Positions 771-32,004 of a stretch of 32,004 nt of DNA are shown here, one piece after another. The stretch is from positions 1-32,004 of the IMG/VR virus record IMGVR_UViG_3300050821_024077. The stretch is one strand, 5' to 3'. The notes beneath the pieces are model-generated. The model was not told the origin of the DNA. It saw only the letters and a list, made by a program, of their open reading frames with translations, and did not search any database. Position numbers and translations under genes: made by a program. The stretch comes from a virus. The first letter of the stretch is position 1, and the number at the start of each line of letters is the position of its first letter.

Positions 771-1072
771 CCTGGCGTATACGCACGCGCGCCGTCCGCG
801 ATCACGGCCACGGGCTCCGCTGGACGCTCTACGCCGCCTGCGACGACTACACAACGATCGTCGTCGCTGACTCGACGTTCGACGGCGTCCTGCTCGATGT
901 CCAGTCGGATGATTACGCCGGCACGACGGGCGACGCCGCGCTCGACTTCGAGGTCGGCGAGCACATCGCGGACTTCCTCGCGCTGCGAAGCGCATTGCAG
1001 TCGCTTGACGAGATCGACCGGCGACGGGGTCGCGTGCAGGTACCGGCGGATCGTTCGCGGTGGGCGGCGTGA
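767..1072 (+). CDS. Hypothetical protein
   Basis: A protein of 101 residues with its ATG inside the previous gene's stop (ATGA). It has a basic start (TWRIRTRAVRDHGHG) followed by alternating strand-like segments (RWTLYAAC, TTIVVADSTF, GVLLDVQS) and an acidic helical middle ending DFLALRSALQSLDEIDRRR. No signal peptide, membrane segment or catalytic motif is seen. The beta-rich first half and helical second half suggest a small folded domain, but I do not recognise the family. Its only functional clue is its place in a coupled operon with RusA and two HTH proteins. Confidence 0.62.
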   Translation: MTWRIRTRAVRDHGHGLRWTLYAACDDYTTIVVADSTFDGVLLDVQSDDYAGTTGDAALDFEVGEHIADFLALRSALQSLDEIDRRRGRVQVPADRSRWAA

Positions 1073-1659
1073 GCGCGGTCGCGGTGAGCCTCGACGCTGA
1101 GCGTCTGCGCCTCGATGCTGCGATCCGCGCCACGCTGATCCGCCTGACGCTGCTCTCGCAGGTCGCCGCGCACTCCTACGGCGGCGGCACCGGCGGCGGC
1201 CATCCGTCGAGCAGCGCGCCAGCCGGCGAGTCACGCCCGTCGCACGAGCGCCTGCACGCCGACTACGAACGCGCGCTCTCGAACGCCGACCGGCAGCGTG
1301 TCCTCGACCGCGCGAAGGCGGAGCTGGAGTCGTGGCGCAAGTGCGCGGTCAAGGTGGACGGCTCGATCAAAGCGGACGTCACGTTCGACGAGATCGTGCT
1401 TGAGGATGGCGAGGGCTTCGACGCGGAACTCGTCGCGCAGCGGTTCGGGATCGCCGTCGCCCACGTTTGTCGGATCAGGCACCGCGCGGGGCGCAACGCG
1501 AGCGACGGCACGGACCCCGAAGCAAGCGGTCTCCCGCGCGAGAAGCGTCGCGCCGAAGCTGTCAGGATGCGCGGAAAGGGCATGAGCCAACGCCAGATCG
1601 CGCTCGCTCTCGGATGTAGCCCTTTCACCATCAACCGTGATCTACGGGAGGCGAAATGA
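1069..1659 (+). CDS. Helix-turn-helix protein (resolvase/HTH_23-like C-terminus)
   Basis: A protein of 196 residues from the GTG at 1069, which overlaps the upstream stop as GTGA. A second in-frame GTG at 1060 is possible. The N-terminal half is helical with a glycine-rich loop (YGGGTGGGHPSS). The middle has a first HTH-like stretch, ELVAQRFGIAVAHVCRIRHRAG. The C-terminus has a clear helix-turn-helix, EAVRMRGKGMSQRQIALALG followed by CSPFTINRDLREAK, in the style of resolvase, Hin and transposase recognition domains (MSQRQIA, turn, STINRDL). Two tandem HTHs suggest a DNA-binding regulator, or a subunit recognising two half sites. No nuclease or recombinase catalytic domain is present. A small-terminase role was considered, but a better candidate lies immediately upstream of the large subunit. 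Confidence 0.7.
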   Translation: MSAVAVSLDAERLRLDAAIRATLIRLTLLSQVAAHSYGGGTGGGHPSSSAPAGESRPSHERLHADYERALSNADRQRVLDRAKAELESWRKCAVKVDGSIKADVTFDEIVLEDGEGFDAELVAQRFGIAVAHVCRIRHRAGRNASDGTDPEASGLPREKRRAEAVRMRGKGMSQRQIALALGCSPFTINRDLREAK

Positions 1660-3648: not shown

Positions 3649-3897
3649 ATGACCGGCTGCAAATGCAGGCGCTGCGGAGAAGGCAAGCCGCACGAGCCCG
3701 TCGACGAGCTGCGCATCCTCAAGGTCTTGTACAGCGCAGACGGCCGCATTCCCCGCCGTCTCCGCCGCTGCCACGGCTACCAGAACGGCTGCACCTGCAC
3801 TGAATGCCGGGCTCGCGAAGACGCCCAGACACAGGCGCTTCCGGCCGAGCCGTTGCAGCCGTGGGAGCCGCGCCCCGCGCGTCTCGCGGCAGCTTGA
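3649..3897 (+). CDS. Cysteine-rich, probably zinc-binding small protein
   Basis: A protein of 82 residues from ATG 3649, with GAGG about 8 bases upstream. There are two cysteine clusters: MTGCKCRRCGEGK at the N-terminus and CHGYQNGCTCTECRARE at residues 41-57. Together they can supply two zinc sites, or one site built from both ends. The part between them (ELRILKVLYSADGRIPRRLRR) is basic and helical, and the C-terminus is proline-rich and probably disordered. Zinc-knuckle mini-proteins like this often bind nucleic acid. It overlaps the HNH gene downstream by four bases (TTGA), so the two may be co-translated. The exact function is unknown. Confidence 0.66.
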   Translation: MTGCKCRRCGEGKPHEPVDELRILKVLYSADGRIPRRLRRCHGYQNGCTCTECRAREDAQTQALPAEPLQPWEPRPARLAAA

Positions 3898-4265
3898 CCG
3901 CAGCACCGCAGCTCTGCTCGACGCCGGGATGTTGGAATCTCGTCCCAAGCGGCAAGTGCTCGGAGTGCGCGAGCGACAGGCGCCGTGAGGAACGCGCGCG
4001 CCGCGCGAGCCCCGCTGACCTCGGCTACGACAGCCGTTGGCGGCGCACCGCAGGACGCTTCCTGAAGTACCACCCGCAATGCGAATGCGACGACTGCCTG
4101 AAGCTGCCGCGCGAGCGCCGTGCGAAAGCGACTGAGGTCCACCACCGCGACGGATGCGGGCCACTCGGACCAGCCGGCCACAAGTGGTTCAACCTCCGCG
4201 CGATGGCTGGCGAGCACCACAGCAAAGAGACCGCCAAGCAGCAGCCCGGCGGATGGAACGGATAA
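3894..4265 (+). CDS. HNH endonuclease (packaging-associated type)
   Basis: A protein of 123 residues starting at a TTG that overlaps the previous stop (TTGA). An ATG further upstream in frame would lie deep inside the neighbouring gene. The N-terminus has CSTPGC and CSEC (a zinc ribbon, residues 8-25), then a basic linker. The HNH core follows: GYDSRWRRTAGRFLKYHPQ, CECDDC, EVHHRDGCGP, then NLRAMAGEHHSKETAKQ. The paired histidines of VHHRDG, the Asn of FNL and the late HHS give the beta-beta-alpha metal fold. Short free-standing HNH proteins near the terminase genes (HK97 gp74 type) help the terminase cut concatemers during packaging. The location about 1.4 kb before terS fits that role, though three genes intervene. 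Family confident; role inferred. Confidence 0.85.
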   Translation: MTAAPQLCSTPGCWNLVPSGKCSECASDRRREERARRASPADLGYDSRWRRTAGRFLKYHPQCECDDCLKLPRERRAKATEVHHRDGCGPLGPAGHKWFNLRAMAGEHHSKETAKQQPGGWNG

Positions 4266-4278
4266 GGGAGACGGGACC

Positions 4279-4605
4279 TTGAGCGCTCAAGCACAGTGGC
4301 CGAGCCTGCCCGAGATCGACGCTCGACTCGCAGCCGAGGACACGCCAGCAGCCGACATGGAGTTCGAGCTGGAGTTCTTCAAGCCGATCGAGCTACGCAG
4401 CCACCCGAAGTACCGCGAGCGCTGCGCACACATGCTCGACGCGCCCGGCACCACCACCTACTGCGTCGCAACAGCCAACACGCGCAAGGGACCGTTCGTC
4501 TGCATCATGCCGCTCGACGGCAGGATCGCGCTACGAACACCCGACCTCACAAAGACCCTCATCGCGGAGGCGCAGAAAGAACTCACTCGCGCGTGGGCCA
4601 CCTGA
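4279..4605 (+). CDS. Hypothetical protein
   Basis: A protein of 108 residues with a TTG start at 4279, chosen because AAGGGAG lies 8 bases upstream and the frame has no better ATG nearby. The N-terminus is acidic (EIDARLAAEDTPAADMEFELEFF), followed by a compact domain with HPKYRERCAHMLDAPGTTTYC and strand-like PFVCIMPLDGRIALR, ending in a helix (IAEAQKELTRAWA). There is no recognised motif. The first base of the next ATG is the last base of this stop (TGATG). Confidence 0.6.
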   Translation: MSAQAQWPSLPEIDARLAAEDTPAADMEFELEFFKPIELRSHPKYRERCAHMLDAPGTTTYCVATANTRKGPFVCIMPLDGRIALRTPDLTKTLIAEAQKELTRAWAT

Positions 4606-5030
4606 TGAGCAGGCACCCCGGCTACGCCGCAGACATCGCCGAGGACGCCAACGGCAACGTCATCCACCTCGCCGTGCATCGCGTCGAGCGCGGCAAACCC
4701 GCCGTCGTCATCCACCGCCAGCGCTGGCAGCCAACCGACCGCAAGCCAGTCGCAGACATACTCGCCATCGCTGAGCAAGCAGCAGACGACGACCGCGCCG
4801 ACATCCTCGCCACGGCGACCAGGCGCACGCTCAAGGTAAGAGCGCCGCAGACAACCGAAGCCACCTTCACGGCGACGATCCCGCCACCCGCGCGCCCGCC
4901 ACGACGGCCAGCCACGCCGCCAGTCCCGCCCGCAGTAGCCACACCCGACCGTGAGCCCGACCGGCAAGGACGACGCCCACAGGCAAGCAAGCGCCGCCAC
5001 GGCAGGCCAAGCCGCACGCCCGCCCGATAG
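4605..5030 (+). CDS. Hypothetical protein with disordered proline/arginine-rich tail
   Basis: A protein of 141 residues coupled to the previous gene by TGATG. The first 85 residues look folded (strands NVIHLAVHRVERGKPAVVIHR, helix VADILAIAEQAADDDRADI). From about residue 95 the protein becomes PPPARPPRRPATPPVPPA, then a very basic end, which is probably disordered and may bind DNA or RNA. No family recognised. The low-complexity end could also mark a decayed or extended C-terminus. Confidence 0.52.
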   Translation: MSRHPGYAADIAEDANGNVIHLAVHRVERGKPAVVIHRQRWQPTDRKPVADILAIAEQAADDDRADILATATRRTLKVRAPQTTEATFTATIPPPARPPRRPATPPVPPAVATPDREPDRQGRRPQASKRRHGRPSRTPAR

Positions 5031-5088
5031 CGCCAGTGCGCCGCGCAGCAAACGAAACCCACAGCCACCCCGACACACGAGGGACGCC

Positions 5089-5229
5089 ATGAGCCGCGAC
5101 ACAACCCGACCGACCGCTAGATGCGGCGAGTCCACCCGGGGGTACACCTGTTGTAGACAACTGCGTGAGCGCGCCCAGCGGCACAAAAACTTGCCTACGA
5201 GTCTGGAGCGGGTTGATGGCTGCCGGTAG
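5089..5229 (+). CDS. Doubtful short ORF
   Basis: A possible peptide of 46 residues from ATG 5089, with GAGGGA a few bases upstream. A longer version would begin at GTG 4951, inside the previous gene and with no ribosome site. The content (RGYTCCRQLRERAQRH) is basic with adjacent cysteines and matches nothing I know. It overlaps the HNH gene by 14 bases. It is listed because the segment 5031-5215 otherwise has no gene. It may be non-coding leader sequence of the HNH gene. Confidence 0.22.
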   Translation: MSRDTTRPTARCGESTRGYTCCRQLRERAQRHKNLPTSLERVDGCR

Positions 5230-5701
5230 GGCGCGTAAGCCGCCGCCGGTCGGCGAGCGGTTCGGTCAGCTCACTGTGCTCGCCGCGGCACCCGATCGCT
5301 CGGGCCGTTCGGCGTATCACTGCCGCTGTTCATGCGGGGCTGAGACGGTAGTCGCTGCAAACGCGCTCCGCTCGGGCAGCGTCCGCAGTTGTGGTTGTCG
5401 CCGCGGTCATCCCGGCTGGCATCGCAGGTGTGGATCGCCGACATACGTTTCGTGGGCCAGCATGGTGCAGCGCTGCACCAACCCAAAGCGCGCGAACTAC
5501 CGCTACTACGGTGGTCGCGGCATCGTCGTCTGTGAGCACTGGCGCGGCAAGCACGGCTTTGAGGCGTTTCTCGCCGACATGGGCGAGCGCCCGGAGGGCA
5601 TGACGCTGGATCGGGTTGATCCGAACGGTGACTACCAACCCAGTAACTGCCGTTGGGCCACCGCGACGGAGCAGCGCATCAACCAACGTCGGGTCGCGTG
5701 A
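5216..5701 (+). CDS. Free-standing HNH homing-type endonuclease
   Basis: A protein of 161 residues from ATG 5216, with GGAG 7 bases upstream. A GTG at 5165 would add 17 residues but lacks such a site. The layout is typical of the phage homing HNH family: ERFGQLTVLA start, CRCSCGAETVV and SVRSCGC (a zinc-ribbon-like knuckle), then SPTYVSWASMVQRCTNPK, YYGGRGIVVCEHW, FLADMGERP, MTLDRVDPNGDYQPSNCRWAT and a terminal EQRINQRR. The DRxDxxGxYxxxNCRWAT stretch holds the catalytic and DNA-contact residues. Such genes act as mobile DNA cutters that spread into related phages lacking them. It lies directly against terS (TGATG overlap), a common landing place. It may also have been recruited for packaging. 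Confidence 0.85.
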   Translation: MAAGRARKPPPVGERFGQLTVLAAAPDRSGRSAYHCRCSCGAETVVAANALRSGSVRSCGCRRGHPGWHRRCGSPTYVSWASMVQRCTNPKRANYRYYGGRGIVVCEHWRGKHGFEAFLADMGERPEGMTLDRVDPNGDYQPSNCRWATATEQRINQRRVA

Positions 5702-6183
5702 TGGCGGGTCGTGGGCCGGCTCCGAAGCCGGCGGCGGCGCGTCAGCGCACGAACCGCAAGAGCACGGCGGCGAAGCTCGAAGCTGACCCGACGGCGGAGG
5801 TTCCGGCGCTCCCGGACCTGCCGGATGAGGACGGCAACTCGCACACGTGGCATCCGCAGACGCTCGCGGAGTGGGACGCGATCTGGCGTTCGCCGATGGC
5901 GTCGCAGTGGCCGGAGTCGGACTACTTCGGGTTGGCGAAGCTGATCGTTGTCGTCGATGACTTCTGGTGGGCGGGCTCGGCGTCGGCTCGGCGGGAAGCG
6001 GCGGTCGAGATTCGGTTGCAGCGCAGCGACTTCGGCTTGGCGCCGCGGCCGCGTGCCGGTTTGCATTGGGAGATCGCTCGGGCGGAGGAGGCGGACGCTC
6101 GCGCGGCGAAACGTAAGCCGCCGGCTGAGCCGGCCGGCGCTGGCGCGGTCGATCCGCGGCAGCGTTTGCGCGCGGTGAAGTGA
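5701..6183 (+). CDS. terS: Terminase small subunit
   Basis: A protein of 160 residues from ATG 5701, sharing one base with the upstream stop; a longer ATG at 5653 would run inside the HNH gene. The start MAGRGPAPKPAAARQRTNRK is the hallmark of small terminases from actinophage-like and P27-family phages. A proline-rich linker then leads to SHTWHPQTLAEWDAIWRSP, MASQWPESDYFGLAKLIVVV and FWWAGSASARREAAVEIRLQ. These helices recognise the packaging site and bring in the large subunit. The C-terminus is basic and disordered. Position immediately before the large subunit (GTGA overlap) supports the call. Confidence 0.85.
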   Translation: MAGRGPAPKPAAARQRTNRKSTAAKLEADPTAEVPALPDLPDEDGNSHTWHPQTLAEWDAIWRSPMASQWPESDYFGLAKLIVVVDDFWWAGSASARREAAVEIRLQRSDFGLAPRPRAGLHWEIARAEEADARAAKRKPPAEPAGAGAVDPRQRLRAVK

Positions 6184-7826
6184 GCGAGCTCGCGGTCCCG
6201 CGGTTCGATCCGGGCTCGACGTGGCCGACGCTGGGGCCGCAGGTCTGCGACTGGATCGAGACGTTCCTCGTGTTCGGCCCCGGCGACCTGCATGGGCAGC
6301 CGGCGAGGCTCAGCGAGGAAGCTCGCGGGCTCGTCTACAGCTTCTACGAGCTGCACCCGCAGGGCTCGGCGGCTGCCGGCAAACGCAGGTTCCGCCGGTG
6401 CGCGGTGTCGCTGCGCAAGGGCCTCGCGAAGACGGAGCTGGGCGCGTGGATCGCGGCGGCGGAGCTCCACCAAGACGCGCCCGTGCGGTGCGACGGCTTC
6501 AACGCCGGCGGCGAGCCGGTCGGCGTCGCGGTTCGTGACCCCTACATCCCGATGCTGGCGGTGTCGGAGGACCAGTCGGAAGGCTTGGCGTACGCGACGC
6601 TTCGTGCTTGCCTGCTCGAAGGGCCGCTCGCGGAGGACTTCGATATCGGCCTCGCGTTCATCACCCGCAAGGACGGTCGCGGCCGGTGCGAGGCGGTCGC
6701 CGGCTCGCCTGGGTCGCGCGAAGGCCCGCGCACCACCTTCGAGCTGTACGACGAAACGCACGGGATGACGCTGCCGCGCCTGCGTGAAGCGCACGCCGCG
6801 ATGGAGGGCAACCTCCTGAAGCTCCTGATCGCCGACCCGTGGTCGCTTGAGATCACGACGGCCCCAGTGCCGGGCGAAGGGAGCGTCGCCGAGGGCACCT
6901 GGGAGTACGCGGAGCAGATCGCAGCGGGCGAGGATCAGGACCGCAGTCTCTTCTTCTTCGCCCGGTGGGCGGGCGAGCAGCACGATCTCTCGAAAGGCAA
7001 GCAGACGCCGCGGGAGACGGTTCGTGCGGCCGTGCTCGAGGCGAGCGGTGACGCTGCGGTCTGGAGCAACGTCGACGCGATCATCGAGGCGTTCTACGAA
7101 CCCAACACCGACCAGGCGCGGTGGGAACGCCTGTGGCTCAACCGGAAGGTGCAGGCCAGCCGGCAGGTTTTCAGCTCGGCGCTCGTGAAGGCCGCCGCTG
7201 ACCCGCTGCCTGGTCGTGTGCCGCCGCGGCGCACCGCGATCGTGCTCGGCTTCGACGGGTCGCGGACGATCGACTCGACGGGCATCATCGGCACCGTCAT
7301 CGAGACGGGCTACCAGTTCACCGTCGGCGAGTGGGAGCGCCCCGTTGACCTGAAGGGCGACTGGGAAGTACCCGCCAGCGATGTTGACGAGACGATGAGC
7401 GACGCCTTTGAACGGTGGAAGGTCATCGTCGCACTGTGCGACCCGCCGTTCTGGGAAGAGCACGTCAACGCTTGGCACGGGCGCTGGCCTGACGTTGTAG
7501 CGCGCTACCACACCAACCAGCACAAGAAAATGGCGTTGACGCTCGCCGCGTACGTCGCTGCGTGGCAAGCGCGCGAAGTCACGCACGACGGTAGCGCGGC
7601 GTACATGAGGCACCTAGCGAACGCGCGCAAGCAGGAGCTGAACGTCACCGACGAGCGCGGCGAGAAGCTGTACGTGATGGTGAAGGAGCGCCGCAACAGC
7701 CCGCTGAAGATCGACCTGGCGATGGCGGGCTGCTTGAGCTGGCAGGCGCGCGGCATGGCAATCGCGAAGGGCGCGATGCAGCGGCACGGCTCCAAACCGG
7801 GGCGCACGACCGTCTACATGGGGTAG
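6180..7826 (+). CDS. terL: Terminase large subunit (packaging ATPase/nuclease)
   Basis: A protein of 548 residues starting at GTG 6180 inside the terS stop. It powers DNA translocation into the prohead and cuts the DNA. The ATPase half has a Walker A-like loop RKGLAKTE at 79-86 (the phage-type deviant P-loop) and Walker B ELYDETH at 188-194 with D191 and E192. The nuclease half has an RNase H-like first strand, IVLGFDGSRTIDSTG, with D359, then LCDPPFWEEHV with D421 and a late acidic residue near LKIDLAMAG. Length is normal for the family. It is followed after a few bases by the portal gene, the standard order. No frameshift or missing motif is seen. Whether packaging is cos or headful cannot be told. 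Confidence 0.93.
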   Translation: MSELAVPRFDPGSTWPTLGPQVCDWIETFLVFGPGDLHGQPARLSEEARGLVYSFYELHPQGSAAAGKRRFRRCAVSLRKGLAKTELGAWIAAAELHQDAPVRCDGFNAGGEPVGVAVRDPYIPMLAVSEDQSEGLAYATLRACLLEGPLAEDFDIGLAFITRKDGRGRCEAVAGSPGSREGPRTTFELYDETHGMTLPRLREAHAAMEGNLLKLLIADPWSLEITTAPVPGEGSVAEGTWEYAEQIAAGEDQDRSLFFFARWAGEQHDLSKGKQTPRETVRAAVLEASGDAAVWSNVDAIIEAFYEPNTDQARWERLWLNRKVQASRQVFSSALVKAAADPLPGRVPPRRTAIVLGFDGSRTIDSTGIIGTVIETGYQFTVGEWERPVDLKGDWEVPASDVDETMSDAFERWKVIVALCDPPFWEEHVNAWHGRWPDVVARYHTNQHKKMALTLAAYVAAWQAREVTHDGSAAYMRHLANARKQELNVTDERGEKLYVMVKERRNSPLKIDLAMAGCLSWQARGMAIAKGAMQRHGSKPGRTTVYMG

Positions 7827-7832
7827 GTGAGC

Positions 7833-9299
7833 ATGGCCGTCACGACCACTGAGGAAGCCGCTCGCGCGACGCTCGACAAGATGGTGAAGCGCCTCGAACG
7901 CGACCAGGACGCGATGGGGCGCTTTCAGCGCTACTACGACGGCCAGCACAACCTCCGCTTCGCGACGCGCAAGTTCCGCGAGTCCTTCGGCGCTCTCTTC
8001 AAAGAGTTCGCCGACAATTGGATGGGCGTCGTCGTGGACGCCGGCGTTGAGCGCATGAAAATCGAGGGCTTTCGCTTCCCGATCGCGGGCGAAGCGGAGG
8101 CCGCGGGCGACGAAGATGATGAGACGACCGGCGACAGGCTCGCGTGGGACATCTGGCAGCGCAACAACCTCGACCTCGCCTCCGAGCTGGCACACGAGCA
8201 GATGTTCGTCAGCGGCCGCGTGTACTTGATGGTCGGGCCGCAGGAAGACGGCTCGACCGAACACCCGCTGTTCACCGTCGAGCACCCGTCGGAGGTCTAC
8301 GTCCACCACCAGGCTAACTCGCTCTCGCCACGGGTAGCAGCGATCAAGCGGTGGTACGACCACGACTCCGAGCTGATGTTCGCCACGCTCTACCTGCGCG
8401 ACTCCGTGTGGAAGTTTCAGAGTAATCAGAAGGCGACGATGACGGAGGCCAGCACGTCGATCGCGTGGGTGCCGCGCGAAGTCGATAGCCCGGTGCTGGA
8501 GAACCCGGTCGGCGTGGTGCCCGTCATCCCGCTCTACAACCGCCAGCAGCTTCTCGGGCACGGCAAGAGCGAGATCGAGGAAGTCATCCCGCTACAGGAC
8601 GCCTTGAACAAGTTCTGGAATGACATGCTCGTGACGTCGGAGTTCTCGGCGTTCCGCCAGCGCGTCTTTATCGGTATGCAGACGCCGGAGGATGAGAAGG
8701 GCGACCCGATCCCCGACTTCGACCTCAAAGCCGCCGTGAACCGCATCATGGCGATCAAAGACCCCAATGTGAAGGTGCAGGAGTTTCAGATCAGCGACCT
8801 GTCGGGCATGATCTCCGCGATCGTCGCCTGTCGCGACCACATCGCCGCGCGGACGCGCACCCCGCCGCACTACCTCGTCGGGAACGTCGTGAACGTCTCC
8901 GGCGATGCGCTGAAGGCGTCCGAGGGCGGTCTCGTCTCGAAGGTCAAACGACGCTCGCGGTTCGCCGGCGAGGGCTGGGAGGAAGCGCAGCGCATCGCGT
9001 TCGCGTACAAGGCCCTCGCGGCGAGCGGCACGGAACGCAAGATGCTCGAAGCCCGCGCGAACTTCTACGCCGCCGAGACCATTTGGAGCAACCCGGAGAT
9101 CACGACCGAATCGCAGCTCGCCGACTCGCTCGCGAAGTACGCCACGCTCGGCGTGCCGCGAGTGCCCTTGTGGGAACGGATGGGCGCCACGCAGACGGAG
9201 ATCGTCCGCTGGAAGGGGCTGCTGGAGGAAGAACCGAAGGAACTGCCGCCGCAGGCGCTCGCTGCGCTTCTCCGCGCCGGCGCTACCGAGGGTCTGTAA
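7833..9299 (+). CDS. Portal protein (SPP1 gp6-like)
   Basis: A protein of 488 residues from ATG 7833. An in-frame GTG at 7827 is possible, but GGGGTAGGTG sits at a better distance from the ATG. Portal proteins form the dodecameric ring at one capsid vertex through which DNA enters and to which the tail attaches. Supporting text: helical start EEAARATLDKMVKRLERDQ, FQRYYDGQHNLRFAT, then ADNWMGVVVDAGVERMKIEGF, the clip/wing part with MFVSGRVYLMVG, VIPLYNR, IPLQDALNKFWNDMLVTSEF and RTRTPPHYLVG. These are the landmarks of the Gp6-like portals of high-GC phages. The acidic loop GEAEAAGDEDDETTGD is an expected exposed insertion. Position between terL and the scaffold is canonical. Confidence 0.9.
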   Translation: MAVTTTEEAARATLDKMVKRLERDQDAMGRFQRYYDGQHNLRFATRKFRESFGALFKEFADNWMGVVVDAGVERMKIEGFRFPIAGEAEAAGDEDDETTGDRLAWDIWQRNNLDLASELAHEQMFVSGRVYLMVGPQEDGSTEHPLFTVEHPSEVYVHHQANSLSPRVAAIKRWYDHDSELMFATLYLRDSVWKFQSNQKATMTEASTSIAWVPREVDSPVLENPVGVVPVIPLYNRQQLLGHGKSEIEEVIPLQDALNKFWNDMLVTSEFSAFRQRVFIGMQTPEDEKGDPIPDFDLKAAVNRIMAIKDPNVKVQEFQISDLSGMISAIVACRDHIAARTRTPPHYLVGNVVNVSGDALKASEGGLVSKVKRRSRFAGEGWEEAQRIAFAYKALAASGTERKMLEARANFYAAETIWSNPEITTESQLADSLAKYATLGVPRVPLWERMGATQTEIVRWKGLLEEEPKELPPQALAALLRAGATEGL

Positions 9300-9323
9300 G
9301 CCCTCGCACCGATCTTGCAATAG

Positions 9324-9344
9324 CTCGCGCCACCGGGGCGCGGG
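9324..9344 (+). other. Stem-loop between portal and scaffold genes
   Basis: Bases 9324-9331 pair with 9337-9344 (8 pairs, one of them U-G) around the loop ACCGG. There is no T tract after it. It lies just upstream of the scaffold ribosome site (AAAGGAAG at 9356-9363). It could act as a weak terminator or processing point, or stabilise the 5' end of the scaffold-capsid message. Confidence 0.45.
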
Positions 9345-9367
9345 TGACATAGAGGAAAGGAAGTGGC

Positions 9368-9898
9368 ATGGGCCAGGAGTCCACCACAACCACAGCCGGA
9401 GACCAGGCGTCGCCGGAGGCCCAGGAGGCCGCGAAGGCAGCAGAGGCAGCGCAGGCGGCAGACGCCGCCGCAACGGCAGCGTCAACCGACGACAAGTCAT
9501 TCTCGGCGGAGTATGTGAAAGGTCTCCGCGAGGAAGCCGCCAAGTACCGCACGGAGGCCAAAGCGGCAGCCGACAAGCTCAAAGAGCGCGAGGACGCCGA
9601 ACTGAGCGAAACGGAGAAGGCGAAGAAAGAAGCGAAAGAGGCGACGGAACGCGCCGATAAGGCCGAGGCCACGGCCGTTCGCTCCGAGGTCGCGATCAAG
9701 AAGAAACTCTCGCCGAGTATGGCCGCGCGCCTAGTCGGTGAGACGAAGGACGAGCTGGAAAAAGACGCCGACAAGCTGCTCAAAGACCTCGGCCCCGGAG
9801 CCACCGCAGGCGGCTTCGACCAGGGCGCGGGGCGCGGCGCGACACCGAAGGGCGGCCGCGATTGGCTCGGCCAGGCAATCGCAGGCAAAGGACAGTAA
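9368..9898 (+). CDS. Capsid scaffolding protein
   Basis: A protein of 176 residues with a strong ribosome site AAAGGAAG. Scaffold proteins assemble with the capsid protein into the prohead and are then expelled or degraded. The sequence shows the usual design. A disordered Ala/Gln/Thr start is followed by a long charged coiled coil (about residues 45-105: EYVKGLREEAAKYRTEAKAA and onward, rich in K, E and A). Then comes a small C-terminal domain (IKKKLSPSMAARLVGETKDEL, DKLLKDLG) and a glycine-rich tail with a basic KGGRDW patch that can touch the capsid shell. It lies between portal and major capsid genes. No protease is visible in or next to it. Confidence 0.87.
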   Translation: MGQESTTTTAGDQASPEAQEAAKAAEAAQAADAAATAASTDDKSFSAEYVKGLREEAAKYRTEAKAAADKLKEREDAELSETEKAKKEAKEATERADKAEATAVRSEVAIKKKLSPSMAARLVGETKDELEKDADKLLKDLGPGATAGGFDQGAGRGATPKGGRDWLGQAIAGKGQ

Positions 9899-9930
9899 CC
9901 GTGACGGGCCTCCCCGCAGTTTGGGGCGGC

Positions 9931-9956
9931 TGACTGGCACGGAGAAGTGCCAGTCA
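9931..9956 (+). terminator. Perfect 10-bp stem-loop before the major capsid gene
   Basis: TGACTGGCAC (9931-9940) pairs perfectly with GTGCCAGTCA (9947-9956) across the loop GGAGAA. No U tract follows. In high-GC phages such hairpins between scaffold and capsid genes can be partial terminators or mRNA-stabilising ends that change the ratio of scaffold to capsid transcripts. The capsid ribosome site (AAGGGA near 9975) lies outside the stem. Confidence 0.5.
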
Positions 9957-9990
9957 TCCCGTAACACTCAAACCAAGGGAGTAAAAGGCC

Positions 9991-10944
9991 ATGCCATACA
10001 ACAATGTGATCGACCGCTCCGGCGCAGTTGCACTCATGCCGGAGGACGTCAGCATGAAGCTGATGCAGGAAGTAAAGAGCGCGTCACTCGCACTGACCGC
10101 GTTCGTAGACGTCCAGATGGTTCGCGGACAGACCCGCACGCCGGTTATCTCCGCGCTCCCGATTGCCTACTTCCCCGGTGGTGACACCGGGATCAGCGGC
10201 ACGACGCAGATGGACTGGAAGAACAAGTACATCAACGCCGAAACGCTGGAGTGCATCGTCCCGATCCCGGAGAGCGTCGCCGAAGATATCGACGGCAACG
10301 TCTGGGATAGAGTCGAACCCTCGGTAAAGAAGGCCATCGCCCGGACGCTCGACGCTGCCGTGATCTTCGGCACGGGCGCCCCGGAAACGTGGGCGGAAAG
10401 CATCGTCGCCTCAGCCAAAGCGGCCGGCAACGAAGCGAAAATCGGCACCGCAAGCGCGGCAGAAGGCGGCCTCGCGGGCGACATCGATGTCGTGCTCGAA
10501 AAACTGGAGGAAGACGGCTTCGACTACGACTACGCTGCGGCGTACGTCGGGCTGAAGTCGAAGATTCGCAAAGCACGCAACACGCTCGGCGACCAGCTCG
10601 CGGACTTCTCGAACGACCGCGCCGGGGGCTTCTCCAGCCTGTACGACCAGCCGCTCGTCTTCCCGGCGCGCGGCATGTGGCCGACGGGCTCCGGTGAAGC
10701 TGCCGCGATCCTCTTCGAGCGTGAACAGTTCGCGGTCGGTCTCCGTACCGACTTCGACACGAAGCTGCTCGACCAGGCCGTGATTCAGGACAACGAAGGC
10801 AAAACGATCTTCAACCTCGCGATGCAGGACATGATCGCCTTGCGCATCCGTTTCCGTTGCGGATGGCAGGTCAGCAATCAGGTCACGTACGACCAGCCGA
10901 CCGAAGCCAGCCGCTACCCGGCGGGCGTCGTCACCCACACCTAG
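9991..10944 (+). CDS. Major capsid protein (HK97 fold)
   Basis: A protein of 317 residues that forms the icosahedral shell. The N-arm and start read MPYNNVIDRSGAVALMPEDV and lead into KLMQEVKSASLALTAFV and VRGQTRTPVIS, the typical opening of HK97-type capsid proteins without a large delta domain. Next come WKNKYINAETLECIVPIPES with VAEDIDGNVWDRVEPSVKKA, the spine helix region. Then FGTGAPETW, YVGLKSKIRKARNTLGD, PLVFPARGMWP, an FEREQFAVGLR strand and a closing QDMIALRIRFRCGWQV. These are the P-domain and A-domain landmarks. Length fits a short HK97 protein built with a separate scaffold. Its gene is bracketed by hairpins at 9931-9956 and 10954-10979, which suggests its own transcript level. 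Confidence 0.9.
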   Translation: MPYNNVIDRSGAVALMPEDVSMKLMQEVKSASLALTAFVDVQMVRGQTRTPVISALPIAYFPGGDTGISGTTQMDWKNKYINAETLECIVPIPESVAEDIDGNVWDRVEPSVKKAIARTLDAAVIFGTGAPETWAESIVASAKAAGNEAKIGTASAAEGGLAGDIDVVLEKLEEDGFDYDYAAAYVGLKSKIRKARNTLGDQLADFSNDRAGGFSSLYDQPLVFPARGMWPTGSGEAAAILFEREQFAVGLRTDFDTKLLDQAVIQDNEGKTIFNLAMQDMIALRIRFRCGWQVSNQVTYDQPTEASRYPAGVVTHT

Positions 10945-10953
10945 TCGCTGCGC

Positions 10954-10979
10954 GATGGCGGGACTCCGGTCCCGCCATC
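10954..10979 (+). terminator. 11-bp stem with UCCG tetraloop after the capsid gene
   Basis: GATGGCGGGAC (10954-10964) pairs perfectly with GTCCCGCCATC (10969-10979). The loop TCCG closed by C-G makes a C(UNCG)G tetraloop, one of the most stable RNA hairpin caps known. There is no run of T downstream, so it may be an atypical terminator of the kind proposed in actinobacteria, or a 3' stabiliser of the capsid message. Confidence 0.6.
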
Positions 10980-11028
10980 TGTGCATCCACTTCAAGAGCG
11001 CGGGTGATCCCGCAGAAAAGGAATTGCC

Positions 11029-11532
11029 ATGACTGCCAAGAACGAACAGAACATTCTCGAATTGGTGGCGGGCGAACTCGCCACCGAAGACGAGCAGGCG
11101 CTCTCTACGACGATCCTCGTCGAGCTGGGCGTCACGTCGGCCGCCAAAACGAGCTACGAAGACATCGTCGCCGTGGTCCCGTTCGCCGGGACCGTCACGG
11201 GCGTCACGTACACCCCCGAGGCCGAAGAGGGCGAATCCGGCACGGAATACCGCGTCTTCAAGGTCGAAGACCTGACCAGCTCACAGGTGCTCGCCGAATT
11301 CTCCACGAAAGCGGCGAAAATCAAAGCGGCCGAACAGAAGGCGCTCACCCTCAACGCGACCGCCGCTGACCTCGTCGTCAAAGCGGGCGACATCCTGAAG
11401 TGGAAGGACACGTCCACCGAAGGCAAAGAAACGAAGGGCGGCGTGCTGAAGATCACGATTGCGCGCACCGTCCAGTCGCCGAAGGCCAACGCGGGCGAGG
11501 GCCAGGCCACGGGCTTCGTCGGGACCGAATAG
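11029..11532 (+). CDS. Post-capsid structural protein, possible capsid decoration protein
   Basis: A protein of 167 residues with ribosome site AAAGGA 6 bases before the ATG. It follows the capsid gene, where decoration or cement proteins usually lie. The first 40 residues are charged and helical (NEQNILELVAGELATEDEQ). The rest is strand-rich with Thr/Val alternation: LSTTILVELGVTSAAKTSYE, VVPFAGTVTGVTYTPEA, EYRVFKVEDLTSSQVLAEF, LVVKAGDILKWKDTST, GGVLKITIARTV. Such a beta sandwich could bind the capsid surface. It does not match SHP or gpD types by eye, so the role rests on position. Confidence 0.62.
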   Translation: MTAKNEQNILELVAGELATEDEQALSTTILVELGVTSAAKTSYEDIVAVVPFAGTVTGVTYTPEAEEGESGTEYRVFKVEDLTSSQVLAEFSTKAAKIKAAEQKALTLNATAADLVVKAGDILKWKDTSTEGKETKGGVLKITIARTVQSPKANAGEGQATGFVGTE

Positions 11533-11535
11533 GTC

Positions 11536-11976
11536 ATGGAGGCCGCAAGCGTGCCGCCGGAGTTCGCGGAGGGCGGCGAGGTATCCCCGGAGGCTGCCGC
11601 AGCGGCGCAGGCAGCCATCGGTGCCACCGCGGGCGATCAGGTCGCGCCGCCAGCTTCAGCGCCATCGGCGCCGGAGACGGTCGAGTCCGTAGCCTCGGAG
11701 GGCCAGGAGCCCGCCGGGGCGCCGCCAGAGACCGCCGAGGGGGCGCCAGGTGCGTCACCGGAGCAGTCGGCAGCGGGCGACGCCCAGGCCCCGGTCGAGG
11801 AGGCGGTCGTCGTCGACGGCCCCGGCTACCTCGGCCACGCACCCGGCGACCCGGGCTTCGAGACCCCGAACGGGACGCCGGCTCCGCCGAACGGCTCCCC
11901 GGTCGGGCGTATGGAAGCGGAGAAGGTCGGCTACCTCGGCGTGCGTAGCGGCGAAGCGCCGCGCAGGGGCCTGTAG
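11536..11976 (+). CDS. Low-complexity Ala/Pro/Glu-rich protein
   Basis: A protein of 146 residues starting 4 bases after the previous stop. Most of it (residues 1-90) is a disordered mix of Ala, Pro, Glu and Gly (VSPEAAAAAQAAIG, APPETAEGAPGASPE), with few hydrophobics. The C-terminus has the short motif GYLG twice: DGPGYLGHAPGDPGF and EKVGYLGVRSGEAP. The repeated motif within a disordered protein may be a docking peptide for another virion component. No family is recognised. It ends the post-capsid pair before a strong hairpin. Confidence 0.6.
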   Translation: MEAASVPPEFAEGGEVSPEAAAAAQAAIGATAGDQVAPPASAPSAPETVESVASEGQEPAGAPPETAEGAPGASPEQSAAGDAQAPVEEAVVVDGPGYLGHAPGDPGFETPNGTPAPPNGSPVGRMEAEKVGYLGVRSGEAPRRGL

Positions 11977-11986
11977 ACGAGAATCG

Positions 11987-12032
11987 AGCGGCCCCGGCCT
12001 AGAGCGTCCATGCAGGCGTTGCCGGGGCCGTT
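11987..12032 (+). terminator. GC-rich inverted repeat after the post-capsid genes
   Basis: CGGCCCCGGC (11989-11998) is the exact reverse complement of GCCGGGGCCG (12021-12030), extended by G-U and A-U pairs at 11988/12031 and 11987/12032. The loop is 22 bases. A modestly T-rich stretch (TTCGTGCTTT) follows. This could be a terminator closing the capsid transcript before the connector genes. Confidence 0.5.
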
Positions 12033-12051
12033 CGTGCTTTGAGGAGGCGCG

Positions 12052-12336
12052 ATGCCAGTCAAATCGGAGGACGAACGCGCGATCCTCTACCGGAACCAGA
12101 ACGACGCGCGCATCGCGTTCCGCGCGAACCAGATACGCGCGCTGGCCCCCGACCCCGCCGCGTTCGAGCTGCTGTGGCGGAACTACCGCAAGGTGTACGA
12201 CCCGACGAACTACATCGAAGGTGAAGATTATCTCCGCGAGGAAGACTTCATGGCGATCTTCGACTACGACAACGACGACGGGAATATCTCGGCGAGTCAA
12301 GTTCACTTGAGGCACGTTCGCCGCCCGAACAAATAG
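12052..12336 (+). CDS. Hypothetical head/connector-region protein
   Basis: A protein of 94 residues with GAGGAGG just upstream of the ATG. It has a charged helical N-terminus (EDERAILYRNQNDARIAFRANQIRAL), a middle AAFELLWRNYRKVYDPTNYIE, and an acidic end DYLREEDFMAIFDYDNDDGN. The end looks superficially like a calcium loop, but the spacing does not fit an EF hand. It lies between the capsid and connector genes. It is probably a small virion or assembly protein; function not recognised. Confidence 0.6.
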   Translation: MPVKSEDERAILYRNQNDARIAFRANQIRALAPDPAAFELLWRNYRKVYDPTNYIEGEDYLREEDFMAIFDYDNDDGNISASQVHLRHVRRPNK

Positions 12337-12353
12337 AAGGGCAGGTGATCGAA

Positions 12354-12812
12354 GTGCCCTCGTCTGACTACCGGCCATCGATCGAAGATATCGGCGCGCG
12401 CATGTTCGCGCGGACGCTCGACTCCAACGGGAACCGTCGCAGCGGCACCTTCACCGCGACCACGACGCCGACCGCGTCCGCTGTAGACGTCCTGATCGAC
12501 GATGCGCTCACTACTGTCGAAGCGGCCGTCGGCCAGGACATCGACGGTGCGTTCCTGAATAGCGCGAAGACATGCGTGATCTACAACACCGCCATGCTGA
12601 TCGAGCTGAGCTACTTCCCGGAGAGCACGGACGCCGGGGATAGCGCCTACAAGGCATACGAGCAGCGCTACGAAGACACGCTAAAGCACTTGAAGGAGGC
12701 GATCAATCAGGTGCGGCCGGGCGACAAGCGCGTCGTCTCGCTGGAAATGCACTCACCGGTGCGAATGCCAGGCAACCGGCTCGACCCTTACGGCAACTTT
12801 CTCTTCCCGTGA
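12354..12812 (+). CDS. Head-tail connector (adaptor) protein
   Basis: A protein of 152 residues from GTG 12354, with AGGTG 6 bases upstream; GTG 12345 would add three residues but is too close to a ribosome site. The opening PSSDYRPSIEDIGARMFART followed by DSNGNRRSGTFTATTTPTASAVDVLID is the familiar start of gp6/adaptor-type connectors in high-GC phages. Next come long helices (DALTTVEAAVGQDI, AKTCVIYNTAMLIELSYFPE, YKAYEQRYEDTLKHLKEAIN). These proteins stack as a ring under the portal and bind the completion protein. It overlaps the next tiny ORF by one base. Call supported by both sequence pattern and place. Confidence 0.78.
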   Translation: MPSSDYRPSIEDIGARMFARTLDSNGNRRSGTFTATTTPTASAVDVLIDDALTTVEAAVGQDIDGAFLNSAKTCVIYNTAMLIELSYFPESTDAGDSAYKAYEQRYEDTLKHLKEAINQVRPGDKRVVSLEMHSPVRMPGNRLDPYGNFLFP

Positions 12813-12910
12813 TGCGCCGACGGCTGGTGGGCTTCCTCGAAGTGTGCGGCAACTGCGGCCTGGAGCGCTTTTACTGCGGCTGCTGGTGGGATCGGCGCCG
12901 TCGTGGCTAA
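12812..12910 (+). CDS. 32-residue CxxC/CxC mini-protein
   Basis: A very short ORF starting with TGATG coupling at the connector stop and overlapping the next gene by 8 bases. The peptide has a basic hydrophobic start (MRRRLVGFLEV), then CGNCG (C12, C15), LERFYCGCWW (C22, C24) and DRRRRG. Four cysteines in CxxC and CxC pairs can hold one zinc ion as a miniature ribbon. Arginine-rich ends suggest contact with nucleic acid or the acidic connector. Its tight coupling on both sides argues that it is translated. The function is unknown. Confidence 0.55.
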   Translation: MRRRLVGFLEVCGNCGLERFYCGCWWDRRRRG

Positions 12911-13376
12911 AGGGAACGTTCCGCGGCTGAAGCTCTACATCGAGGACGAGGACCGCACGTCTGAGGAGCTAGCGGCGATCGGCGCGCGTGCGCGCGACGC
13001 GAAGCCCGTGATGCGGCTGATCCAAGCGTTGATGATGGAGAGCAGCGCCGAGCAGTTTCTCTCCGAGGGCGCGAGCGTCGGCGAGCCGTGGAAGCGAGAC
13101 ACGGACGAATGGACCGAACGCAAGCAAAAAGAAGGTCTATCGGACGGGACGCTCGAGCGCCGCGGCGACCTGCGTAGCGCGATGTTGGCGAAGACGAGCG
13201 GCGGCGCATCGATCCGGCGACTGAGCAAACAGTCCACGAGCGTCGGAGTGCGTATCTACTACGCGCGCTTCGCCGGCAAGAAACGCCGGCTGCTGACGAT
13301 GACGGTCCCGCAGCAGGACAAGTACGCGAGCATGATGATCGACTACATCCTCACCGGAAGGCTGGCGAAGCTATGA
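12903..13376 (+). CDS. Phage virion morphogenesis / tail completion protein (gpG-like)
   Basis: A protein of 157 residues, GTG start at 12903 within the preceding mini-ORF. The pattern matches the phage virion morphogenesis family. An N-terminal helix is followed by ALMMESSAEQFLSEGASVGEPWKRDTDEWTERK, where a conserved region ends with the G-x-x-W of these proteins. Then come LSDGTLERRGDLRSAMLAKTS, strands SVGVRIYYARF and a C-terminal region around LLTMTVPQQDKYASMMIDYIL. In related phages it helps complete the head-tail joint or tail tip. Coupled downstream by ATGA. Confidence 0.72.
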   Translation: MAKGNVPRLKLYIEDEDRTSEELAAIGARARDAKPVMRLIQALMMESSAEQFLSEGASVGEPWKRDTDEWTERKQKEGLSDGTLERRGDLRSAMLAKTSGGASIRRLSKQSTSVGVRIYYARFAGKKRRLLTMTVPQQDKYASMMIDYILTGRLAKL

Positions 13377-14005
13377 GTTCATCCTTTGGTGAAATCGTCA
13401 CGGTCCCGCAGATCGAGCAGGCGATCCTCGCGACGCTTCAGAAGTGGAGCAACACCTACCTGCGCGAGATCGAGCGCCGCACCGGCCGCGAACCAAATGC
13501 CTTCCCGGACGTCGCGTCGTGGCGCCCGACGGACGACATCCTCGACCGCTTCCCCGAGCAGCAGATTCCCTCCGTGCAGCTCCAATGCACTTCGGAGGTC
13601 GATATCGAGACGAGGGCGCAGGACGCGGTTGCGGGCCTGCGCGGCACGGTAGACGTGCTGGTGCAGACCAACGAAGCCGAAACGGCGAGAGAAGTCGCGT
13701 CGCTCTACGTCTACCACCTGGCGCTGATCCTCGTGCAGAACCCCGAGCTTGACGGCTCCGTGAAATGCGCCGGCGTCGTGTGGGAGAAAATGGGCGTGCC
13801 GGATGTCGGGAGGCTGAAGGACAAGTCGCGTTGGCTGGCGTGGGGTGACGCGACGATCTTCCTCGCGATCGAAGGGTTCGCGTCGCCGCTCATGGGGCCA
13901 GCGGAACCGATCCCCGCGGACGAAGAAGGCACGGCGCCACCCGAGTACCCGGTCGCCGAGACGCACCATCTGGACGTCGAGTTGGAGGACGACGAAGATG
14001 CCTGA
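13373..14005 (+). CDS. Probable tail terminator / completion protein
   Basis: A protein of 210 residues, coupled to the previous gene by ATGA. An N-terminal helical part (VPQIEQAILATLQKWSNTYL) is followed by strands PSVQLQCTSEVDIETR, GLRGTVDVLVQT and a helix ETAREVASLYVYHLALILVQ. This alpha/beta layout, in the slot between the morphogenesis gene and the tail genes, is typical of the tail terminator that caps the tube. The last 40 residues are acidic and probably flexible. The call depends mostly on gene order. Confidence 0.62.
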   Translation: MSSSFGEIVTVPQIEQAILATLQKWSNTYLREIERRTGREPNAFPDVASWRPTDDILDRFPEQQIPSVQLQCTSEVDIETRAQDAVAGLRGTVDVLVQTNEAETAREVASLYVYHLALILVQNPELDGSVKCAGVVWEKMGVPDVGRLKDKSRWLAWGDATIFLAIEGFASPLMGPAEPIPADEEGTAPPEYPVAETHHLDVELEDDEDA

Positions 14006-29738: not shown

Positions 29739-29759
29739 GCGCTGATGGGGGAGGGGGAG

Positions 29760-30665
29760 ATGCAGGCAATAACGCCGCTCAGCCGCAGCGAGTTCGATCG
29801 CGTCATCCGCGCCACCTACCCCGTCGCCGGGTCGTACGCGGACGCCGAGGAATGCGCGCTCGACGCGCAGCTCCAAGTCCTCACTAAAGAAGTGGACAAC
29901 CCCGGCGACGTGGGTGGTCTCGTCGCCCGGATCAGCCGCGACAACGCGCTCAAGCGACGACGCCAGCGGCGCGTCCACCCACTCCAAAGCCTCGACGCGA
30001 TCGAAGCTCACGACCGGGGCGACGTGTTCCGCGACCACGAGCCGATCCGACGCGCCGCGGACTGGCGCACGTTCTACTTGTGGCCCGGCTCAGATGTCCA
30101 TATCGACCTGCTCGCCATCGCCGAAGACCACGACGAGCGCCACCGCCTCGCGCTCGCCATCGCCGCGCTACAGGACCGCGCGGAGTCCGCGGACTACATC
30201 GGCTTGCACCGCAGCTTCAGGGAGTGGGATCGCGAGAGCGTGCTCGACGCGCTCCGTGAGTTCGGCGAGCACAAGGGCAGCACGCCGACGCACGCCGACC
30301 TCAACCGGCACGAGTCGCTGCCGTCGATCAGCACGATCTACCGTTTCTTCCGGCAGTGGGAGACGGCGCTCCGCGCGGCGGGCTTCGAGCCCCACAAGGC
30401 CAGCCGATCCTTCTCGCGCTGGGATCGCGAGACGGCGCGCGCAGCGTTCTGTGCGTGGGTCACGCGCCACGGCCGCATACCGGGCCGTCACGAGCTACAG
30501 GTCGAGCAGGCCGACCTCCCGAGCCTCACAACGCTCCGGCGCCTCTTCGGCACGGGCGGCGCTCTGCGCCTCAGCGTCGAGATCAACCGTCTCTGCCTGG
30601 ACGCGGGTTGCGCGCACACCTGGCGCCCCGGGACGCCTCACGCGGCCGCACGCCATAGCCTATGA
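29760..30665 (+). CDS. Sigma-70 region-2-like protein fused to two HNH-associated repeats
   Basis: A protein of 301 residues from ATG 29760, which has a GGGAGGGGGAG ribosome site; ATG 29745 would add five residues. Residues about 9-75 (EFDRVIRATYPVAGSYADAE, ECALDAQLQVLTKEVDNPGD, VGGLVARISRDNALKRRRQR) read like ECF sigma region 2: the DAE..DAQ..VL helix, a core-binding helix and basic RxRRxRR. Region 4 is absent. Instead residues 155-209 (REWDRESVLDALREFGEHKG, STPTHADLNRHESLPSISTI, YRFFRQWETALRAAGFE) and 219-275 (a second copy: SRWDRETARAAFCAWVTRHG, ...) are homing-endonuclease-associated repeats, small DNA-binding units. It may be a phage transcription switch; function inferred only. Confidence 0.72.
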   Translation: MQAITPLSRSEFDRVIRATYPVAGSYADAEECALDAQLQVLTKEVDNPGDVGGLVARISRDNALKRRRQRRVHPLQSLDAIEAHDRGDVFRDHEPIRRAADWRTFYLWPGSDVHIDLLAIAEDHDERHRLALAIAALQDRAESADYIGLHRSFREWDRESVLDALREFGEHKGSTPTHADLNRHESLPSISTIYRFFRQWETALRAAGFEPHKASRSFSRWDRETARAAFCAWVTRHGRIPGRHELQVEQADLPSLTTLRRLFGTGGALRLSVEINRLCLDAGCAHTWRPGTPHAAARHSL

Positions 30666-30712: not shown

Positions 30713-30738
30713 GAAGTGTCGCAGGGTTGCGACACTTC
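30713..30738 (+). terminator. 11-bp perfect hairpin after the sigma2-like gene
   Basis: GAAGTGTCGCA (30713-30723) pairs perfectly with TGCGACACTTC (30728-30738) across GGGT. It is followed by GTTT, a weak T tract. It could be a terminator for the structural/sigma transcript. It overlaps two of the TCGCAG motifs, so it may instead be a protein-binding palindrome. Confidence 0.5.
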
Positions 30739-30775: not shown

Positions 30776-30803
30776 AACCACTCGCAGCGTGCGAGGGGTT
30801 TTT
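30776..30803 (+). terminator. Rho-independent terminator candidate
   Basis: AACC-A-CTCGCA pairs with TGCGAG-G-GGTT (one mismatch, loop GCG), directly followed by a run of five T (30799-30803). A run of five A at 30766-30770 on the other side gives the reverse strand a T tract as well, so it may work in both directions. It is the clearest intrinsic terminator in the window, placed between the structural block and the integrase. Confidence 0.6.
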
Positions 30804-31032: not shown

Positions 31033-32004
31033 ATGAGCAGCATGAAGTGGCCGGACGCGATCGACTCCTACCTGCGCGACCAGCGGCAGTACGGGCGGAT
31101 CAACAGCGAGAACACGACGCGGGCGTACCGCTCAACGCTGCTCCTGCACGCCGAAGACACGCCGGACGGGCCGGTGGAGGCGGGCCGGGAGGACATCAAG
31201 CGCACTCTCGCTCGCTGGGAGACGCCCAACACGCAGACGCGGGCCCACTCGGTGATGATGTCGTTCTACGACTGGCTTTGCATGGAGGGCCACCGCGAGA
31301 CGAACCCCGCGCGCCAGGTCCGCAAGGCGAAGCGCCGCACGCCGAGCGTGTACCGTCTCACACGCCAGGAGACGCAGGCGCTGATCGAGGCGTGCGAGAC
31401 GGTCAGGGAGCGCCGCGTGATCCTGCTCGGGCTCTGCACCGGCGCACGCAACGGTGAACTGCATCAGTTCCAGGGGCGCCACTTCTCACGCGAGGGCTAC
31501 GTGTGGTTCTCGCCCGATATCACGAAGGGCAAAACCGAGCGCTGGACGCCCGTTCTGCCCGAGCTTGAGCCCGTCGTCGCGGACATCCGCGCGACCGTCC
31601 CGAGCGACCACTACGTCATTGCGAGCTACCGCCGCGGCGGCGGCGAACGCGACCCGACCTATCCGACGAACCGCGTGACGATCGGGCGGATCGTCAAAGC
31701 CGTCGCGCGGCGCGCGGGAATCGCGGCGAACGTCTACCCGCACATGCTGCGCCACGCCTACGGCGACCACATCGCCAAGCACGCCGGTCTGCGCGCCGCG
31801 CAGGCGCTCATGGGGCACGCTTCAGTGCAGACAACCGCGAGCGTATACGTAGACCGACCCGACCTCGACGAGCTATCCAGCAGCGTCCGGGGCCTGCGCT
31901 ACACGAGCGACGCGCCCCGGCTGACACTCGCCCGGGGCGACGAGAGCGCCGCGCGCTGGGAGGCCGAGGCGGAGATCGCCCTCAGCGCTTACCTGCGCTA
32001 CTAA
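31033..32004 (+). CDS. int: Tyrosine integrase / site-specific recombinase
   Basis: A protein of 323 residues with a strong AAGGAGG (31021-31027) 5 bases before the ATG; the frame is open further upstream but lies in non-coding repeats. A core-binding N-terminal domain (DSYLRDQRQYGRINSENTTR, AYRSTLLLH, VMMSFYDWLCMEGHRETNPA) precedes the catalytic domain. Active-site residues are R139 (LCTGARNGEL), K165/K167 (TKGKTERW), H237 and R240 (HMLRHAYGDH), H262 (LMGHASVQTT) and the nucleophile Y272 (TASVYVDRPD). The full set is present, so it should be active. It lacks a clear arm-binding N-terminal domain, like XerC/D-type and simple integrases. It supports a temperate lifestyle. Confidence 0.9.
   Translation: MSSMKWPDAIDSYLRDQRQYGRINSENTTRAYRSTLLLHAEDTPDGPVEAGREDIKRTLARWETPNTQTRAHSVMMSFYDWLCMEGHRETNPARQVRKAKRRTPSVYRLTRQETQALIEACETVRERRVILLGLCTGARNGELHQFQGRHFSREGYVWFSPDITKGKTERWTPVLPELEPVVADIRATVPSDHYVIASYRRGGGERDPTYPTNRVTIGRIVKAVARRAGIAANVYPHMLRHAYGDHIAKHAGLRAAQALMGHASVQTTASVYVDRPDLDELSSSVRGLRYTSDAPRLTLARGDESAARWEAEAEIALSAYLRY

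Follow-up and report, generated by a model that had tools for sequence, protein, structure and literature searches.

An ECF sigma region 2 homologue joined to HNH-associated repeats: a putative family of mobile-element transcription regulators

Introduction

ECF (group IV) sigma factors contain a region 2 (Sigma70_r2, PF04542) in which a docking-helix motif touches the beta-prime clamp and the -10 element is recognised through the area of regions 2.3 and 2.4. In SigI (sigma-I) of Bacilli and Clostridia, region 2 is combined with a non-homologous C-terminal domain that reads the -35 element (PMC10575876), and gp55 of phage T4 is a specificity factor with a region 2 homology domain that works at promoters that lack a conserved -35 element (PMC7892883).

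The protein described here is encoded near the end of a 32,004-base virus record from IMG/VR; this whole record is referred to below as the window. It resembles ECF sigma factors in its region 2, in the AED..QE docking helix and in the start of the linker (SLDA/SLEAL), but it lacks region 4 and carries two HNH repeats instead; moreover, most members of its family have lost the W and N residues of region 2.3/2.4, and no anti-sigma gene was recognised. As in SigI, region 2 is joined to a C-terminal domain that is unrelated to region 4; in contrast to SigI, this domain consists of HNH repeats, the phylum is a different one, and the setting is that of mobile elements. SigI gave no match when the family profile was compared, at the level of sequence only, with the PDB up to an E value of 10, where only the ECF factor SigE was returned. 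What the fusion shares with gp55 is a region 2 homology domain as the basis of a phage-encoded factor, but gp55 employs gp33 and the gp45 sliding clamp and has no DNA-binding repeats of its own, and no sequence similarity between the two was found. Finally, the tandem repeats, the first of them above the Pfam cut-off, are shared with HNH_repeat (PF18780) proteins, but the other partners observed for such repeats in this analysis are a serine recombinase, T5orf172/MUG113 or other HTH domains, and a sigma region 2 partner is undescribed in the sources searched. Neither an annotated family nor a published description of the fusion was found, and among the papers searched none pairs an HNH repeat with a sigma factor and none mentions the homing endonuclease associated repeat.

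The fusion gene and its surroundings in the phage record

The relevant features of the window are as follows.

29760..30665, plus strand: sigma2-HNH-repeat fusion protein, 301 aa (open reading frame, codon-position GC)
29766..30005, plus strand: sigma-70 region 2-like domain, residues 3-82 (ECF profiles; PDB matches, all ECF sigma factors; alignment)
30006..30224, plus strand: linker without recognisable region 4, residues 83-155 (Pfam, NCBIfam, PHROGs; alignment)
30225..30392, plus strand: HNH_repeat unit 1, residues 156-211 (PF18780, E 3e-12; own repeat profile, 87 bits)
30420..30584, plus strand: HNH_repeat unit 2, divergent, residues 221-275 (own repeat profile)
30713..30738, no strand assigned: perfect inverted repeat with 11-nt arms and a 4-nt loop, in the gap between the fusion gene and the integrase
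30781..30795, plus strand: terminator-like hairpin with a T-run, between the fusion gene and the integrase
31033..32004, plus strand: tyrosine integrase (PF00589, E 4e-19; matches phage integrases)

The open reading frame picked out by a previous sequence-only reading is a real gene, with a GC content of 0.87 at the third codon position versus 0.71 and 0.50 at the other two. It starts either at ATG 29760, which is immediately preceded by a purine-rich, Shine-Dalgarno-like stretch, or at an in-frame upstream ATG at 29745, which would extend the protein to 306 residues, and its TGA codon ends at 30665. The same reading had correctly placed the gene upstream of an integrase on a tailed-phage record. 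The window encodes an SPP1-type portal, an HK97-like capsid protein, baseplate J, a tail collar protein and the tyrosine integrase, together with a tail sheath whose match stays under the Pfam cut-off and an actinophage-type terminase. The record opens with a RusA start codon (ATG) and stops at the integrase stop codon, as if it had been excised from a longer contig at gene boundaries, with the real prophage ends lying outside it; since both record ends fall on gene boundaries, it is probably a predicted provirus.

The fusion gene is followed by the terminator-like hairpin and then by the integrase, which likely begins at ATG 31033 in a reading frame that is open from 30727. The inverted repeat may be an operator, a terminator or an integration-related site. 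The terminator-like hairpin is a weak signal, as two such hairpins were found in comparison to 1.0 expected by chance. Elsewhere in the window, two small proteins encoded near the terminase (5165-5701 and 3804-4265) look like HNH-type endonucleases by eye and have no Pfam match at E 0.1.

Homology of the N-terminal domain to ECF sigma region 2

The N-terminus of the window protein by itself has no sigma match in Pfam. When 16 ECF domains were collected via Pfam without reference to the window and made into an independent profile, the window protein ranked first among the 315 open reading frames of the window, with an E value of 0.018 and a score that was equalled in 0 of 7,817 scored shuffles. 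An earlier ECF profile had given 30.5 bits to the same N-terminus, but that profile contained sequences chosen for their similarity to the family, and the fair figure for the sigma signal in the window is that of the independent 16-member profile. The best PDB match of the window protein (177,635 sequences) is ECF SigE, aligned with query residues 6-72 at an E value of 0.29, and the three proteins matched over residues 7-89 in 397 actinobacterial genomes (L036, L042 and L049) are all genuine ECF sigma factors. In low-confidence structural models, helices are predicted at about residues 26-43, corresponding to the core-docking helix, and at about residues 49-68, corresponding to region 2.3/2.4.

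Four full-length relatives were found, L033/L100 in genome G371, L081/L104 in G603, L082/L105 in G669 and L110 in G789, all within a single order of Actinomycetota, in which 232 genomes were searched. L105 reaches 29.4 bits with Sigma70_r2 (cut-off 24; E 7e-7) and 54.5 bits with HNH_repeat, and its N-terminus is matched by 11 NCBIfam sigma-70 models. L100/L033 likewise combines Sigma70_r2 (E 6e-5) with HNH_repeat and exceeds the cut-off in a genome-wide search. The window protein is collinear with L105 in both parts, at E values of 3e-4 for the N-terminal part and 5e-23 for a stretch spanning both repeats. With the independent ECF profile, the scores of L104 and L110 stay within the range of their own shuffles, and the family membership of these two is based on full-length similarity.

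With the five-member N-terminal profile, six PDB sequences were obtained up to an E value of 10, all of them ECF sigma factors, among which SigE scored 9.8e-5, SigJ 0.004, SigL 0.02 and RpoE 0.11. In a profile-profile comparison of the family N-termini with the independent ECF set, a probability of 95.1% and a score of 45.1 were reached, and the maximum in 299 column-shuffle controls was 27.6. These findings confirm, by sequence comparison, that the N-terminus of the window protein is a homologue of ECF sigma region 2, an assignment whose signal is weak when the protein is taken alone but which is secure because full-length relatives with the same architecture score as sigma. The earlier proposal of such a domain is thereby borne out, and its expectation of a PF04542-like hit in the first 80 residues, which failed for the window protein in Pfam, holds for L105 and for the family N-terminal profile; a match to an unrelated helical family, named in advance as grounds for rejection, did not appear in the PDB. 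The structure prediction that had been suggested was less informative, and the single-sequence AlphaFold models, which had low confidence (pLDDT 38.5 and 57.3), were of insufficient quality for searching by fold.

In a 399-genome sample of the class, three of the four relatives and no others were recovered, and no further full-length member was found at E 1e-10 in 251 genomes from the phylum of the Chloroflexi genome G014 or in 277 sampled genomes of Actinomycetota. The window protein, when used directly as a query, retrieved no relative from IMG/VR, from a GTDB contig scan or from the viral kin of the window, and its matches in phage and plasmid collections were all weak and mainly concerned the HNH-repeat region. 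Nothing was retrieved in viral scans queried with the relatives, the integrase, the baseplate protein or the family alignment, and the relatives surfaced solely through sensitive per-genome searches.

The HNH-associated repeats and the linker

The C-terminal half had been read as two HNH-associated repeats, which is correct, as are the motifs quoted for them (WDRE, HKG and LPSISTIYRFF in the first; WDRE, HG and LPSLTTLRRLF in the second). Repeat 1 matches PF18780 over residues 157-210 with 47 bits (gathering cut-off 26). Repeat 2 is too diverged for Pfam and was detected only by a profile built from such repeats, with 18.6 bits over residues 221-264, so that of the two PF18780 hits anticipated earlier only the first is above the cut-off; repeat 2 is nevertheless collinear with that of L105, and the repeat profile found a second repeat in all five family members (14.6 to 23.2 bits). 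A PDB search with this profile gave no credible relative, and neither the window protein nor any relative that was scanned has a recognisable nuclease domain.

In related genomes, HNH repeats are also joined to serine recombinase, T5orf172/MUG113 and region-4-like HTH domains, and because of these combinations a role as an add-on DNA-binding module would suit the repeats here too. The linker between the two halves comes after an ECF-linker-like QSLDAIE segment in the alignment. As had been expected for the window protein, no region 4 was matched in it (Pfam, NCBIfam, PHROGs), nor in the relatives (Pfam, NCBIfam).

Gene neighbourhoods

In L100, L104 and L110, the fusion gene overlaps an upstream winged-HTH-like gene by TGATG. 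This partner is conserved in the three relatives, its Pfam similarity having been tested in L100 and L104, and none was found in the window. A tyrosine integrase adjoins or is near the fusion gene in the window and in two relatives. In L104, it is located about 2 kb away, beside tRNA-His, with a toxin-antitoxin-like gene pair in between; the stretch at 3690-13719 of this locus, which contains Upx-like (E 2e-25) and SIR2-like genes, the winged-HTH and sigma2-HNH pair and the integrase, is probably a defence island. In L105, a small HTH_17 gene and the integrase are oriented divergently from the fusion gene. In L100, the gene adjoins a gene pair that resembles an AbiE-type toxin-antitoxin system by eye, and its 72-kb contig contains no integrase.

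The recurrence of the fusion in four genomes, by or near an integrase in two of them, gives it the appearance of a small family of mobile-element-borne transcription regulators that is as yet undescribed. The cellular relatives occupy integrase-bearing or variable chromosomal loci, one of them with defence genes, and not recognised prophages, and because of this the function probably relates to mobile elements in general rather than to a lytic decision. The lysis-lysogeny or late switch that was imagined for the window gene has no direct support.

Docking residues and the proposed function

An alignment of the five family members with the 16 ECF sigma factors indicates which parts of region 2 have been kept. 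The docking-helix motif AE(D/E)xxQ(E/D) is largely preserved: it reads AEECALD in the window protein, the most diverged copy at this motif (Q to L), and AEDAVQE, AEDAIQD, AEDAAHD or AEDAIQE in the four relatives. The AE(D/E) and acidic positions of the motif are conserved in all five members. By contrast, a Y or an L stands in place of the region 2.3 W that 15 of the 16 ECF factors have, and L105 alone has kept the region 2.3/2.4 N found in 16 of 16, the window protein having L54 and D61 at these positions. Since the docking motif survives and the W and N are mostly lost, docking is more likely to have been retained than promoter melting.

With the architecture, the ECF region 2 homology, the four-genome recurrence, the winged-HTH partner in three relatives and the integrase neighbourhood demonstrated, the interpretation that we lean towards on balance is that the protein is an RNA polymerase-docked transcription regulator of mobile elements, which would derive from an ECF sigma ancestor whose -35 reader was replaced. 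The sigma region 2 domain would dock on the beta-prime clamp helices of the host RNA polymerase, and the two HNH-type helix-turn-helix repeats, having taken the place of the lost region 4, would bind a specific upstream site. In this way, the polymerase would be recruited to the promoters of the element or retained there, and the genes of the element could be controlled. This docked regulator is supported by the sigma and HNH_repeat scores of L105 and L100 and the largely kept docking motif, by the partner gene with its TGATG overlap, by the use of HNH repeats as add-ons in serine recombinases and T5orf172 proteins, and by the precedents of SigI and T4 gp55. It is counted against by the window copy, which has the most diverged docking motif, no W or N in region 2.3/2.4, a weak sigma signal and no winged-HTH partner.

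In its strongest form, this explanation becomes that of a true alternative sigma factor, in which region 2 would dock and melt the -10 element while the repeats would read the -35 element in the manner of SigI. Such a factor is possible but on the doubtful side, and its probability is included in that of the docked regulator. The homology extends along the entire length of region 2, L105, the least decayed copy, retains the complete DxxQE docking motif and, in region 2.3/2.4, the N and an aromatic residue (Y), and SigI demonstrates that an unrelated domain can replace region 4 (PMC10575876); however, four of the five members, including the window protein, have lost the W and N that nearly all ECF factors of the comparison set keep, and no anti-sigma partner was recognised.

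It is unlikely that the protein is instead an accessory or regulator of site-specific recombination, with a region 2 domain that is a relic acting off RNA polymerase. The integrase next to the gene in the window and L105 and about 2 kb from the L104 copy would fit such a role, as would the fusion of HNH repeats to a serine recombinase and the decay of region 2 in the window copy. Against it are the docking-helix positions conserved throughout the family, the apparent co-translation of three members with a transcription-factor-like winged-HTH protein, and the 72 kb around the L100 copy that contain no integrase. A remnant of an HNH homing endonuclease that lost its nuclease and has an unrelated helical N-terminus, as the naming of PF18780 repeats after their association with homing endonucleases might suggest, is very improbable and disfavoured, given the absence of a nuclease domain in the members scanned, the N-terminus that matches only sigma factors in the PDB, the architecture conserved in four genomes and the intact codon bias in the window.

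If the docked regulator is true, a sigma factor can exchange its -35 reader for a DNA-binding repeat known from homing endonucleases and recombinases, a second route beside that of SigI, and mobile elements carry such factors of their own. Region 2 would then be a modular scaffold for promoter specificity, and the family would offer a handle on gene control in actinobacterial prophages and genomic islands. More tentatively, these proteins may form a new sigma-like class in actinobacterial phages and integrative elements, in which an ECF region 2 docks and the tandem HNH repeats provide an entirely different promoter code, in some cases with a co-translated winged-HTH protein.

Other sigma-like and HNH-repeat proteins

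An early-region protein of the window (1060-1659) has a C-terminal HTH that comes near sigma region 4 (Sigma70_r4_2, 24.1 bits versus 25.7). In the order that contains the four relatives, a separate family joins a sigma-70-region-4-like HTH to two HNH repeats and is thus a mirror image of the sigma2-HNH fusion. Its members are L114 (1456-2361, minus strand), L115, L117, L120 (1360-2340, plus strand) and L125, and the two that were scanned match Sigma70_r4 at E values of 1e-6 and 3e-7. Large serine recombinases with C-terminal HNH repeats are encoded in L126 (112-2040, plus strand; two repeats) and in L083/L112.
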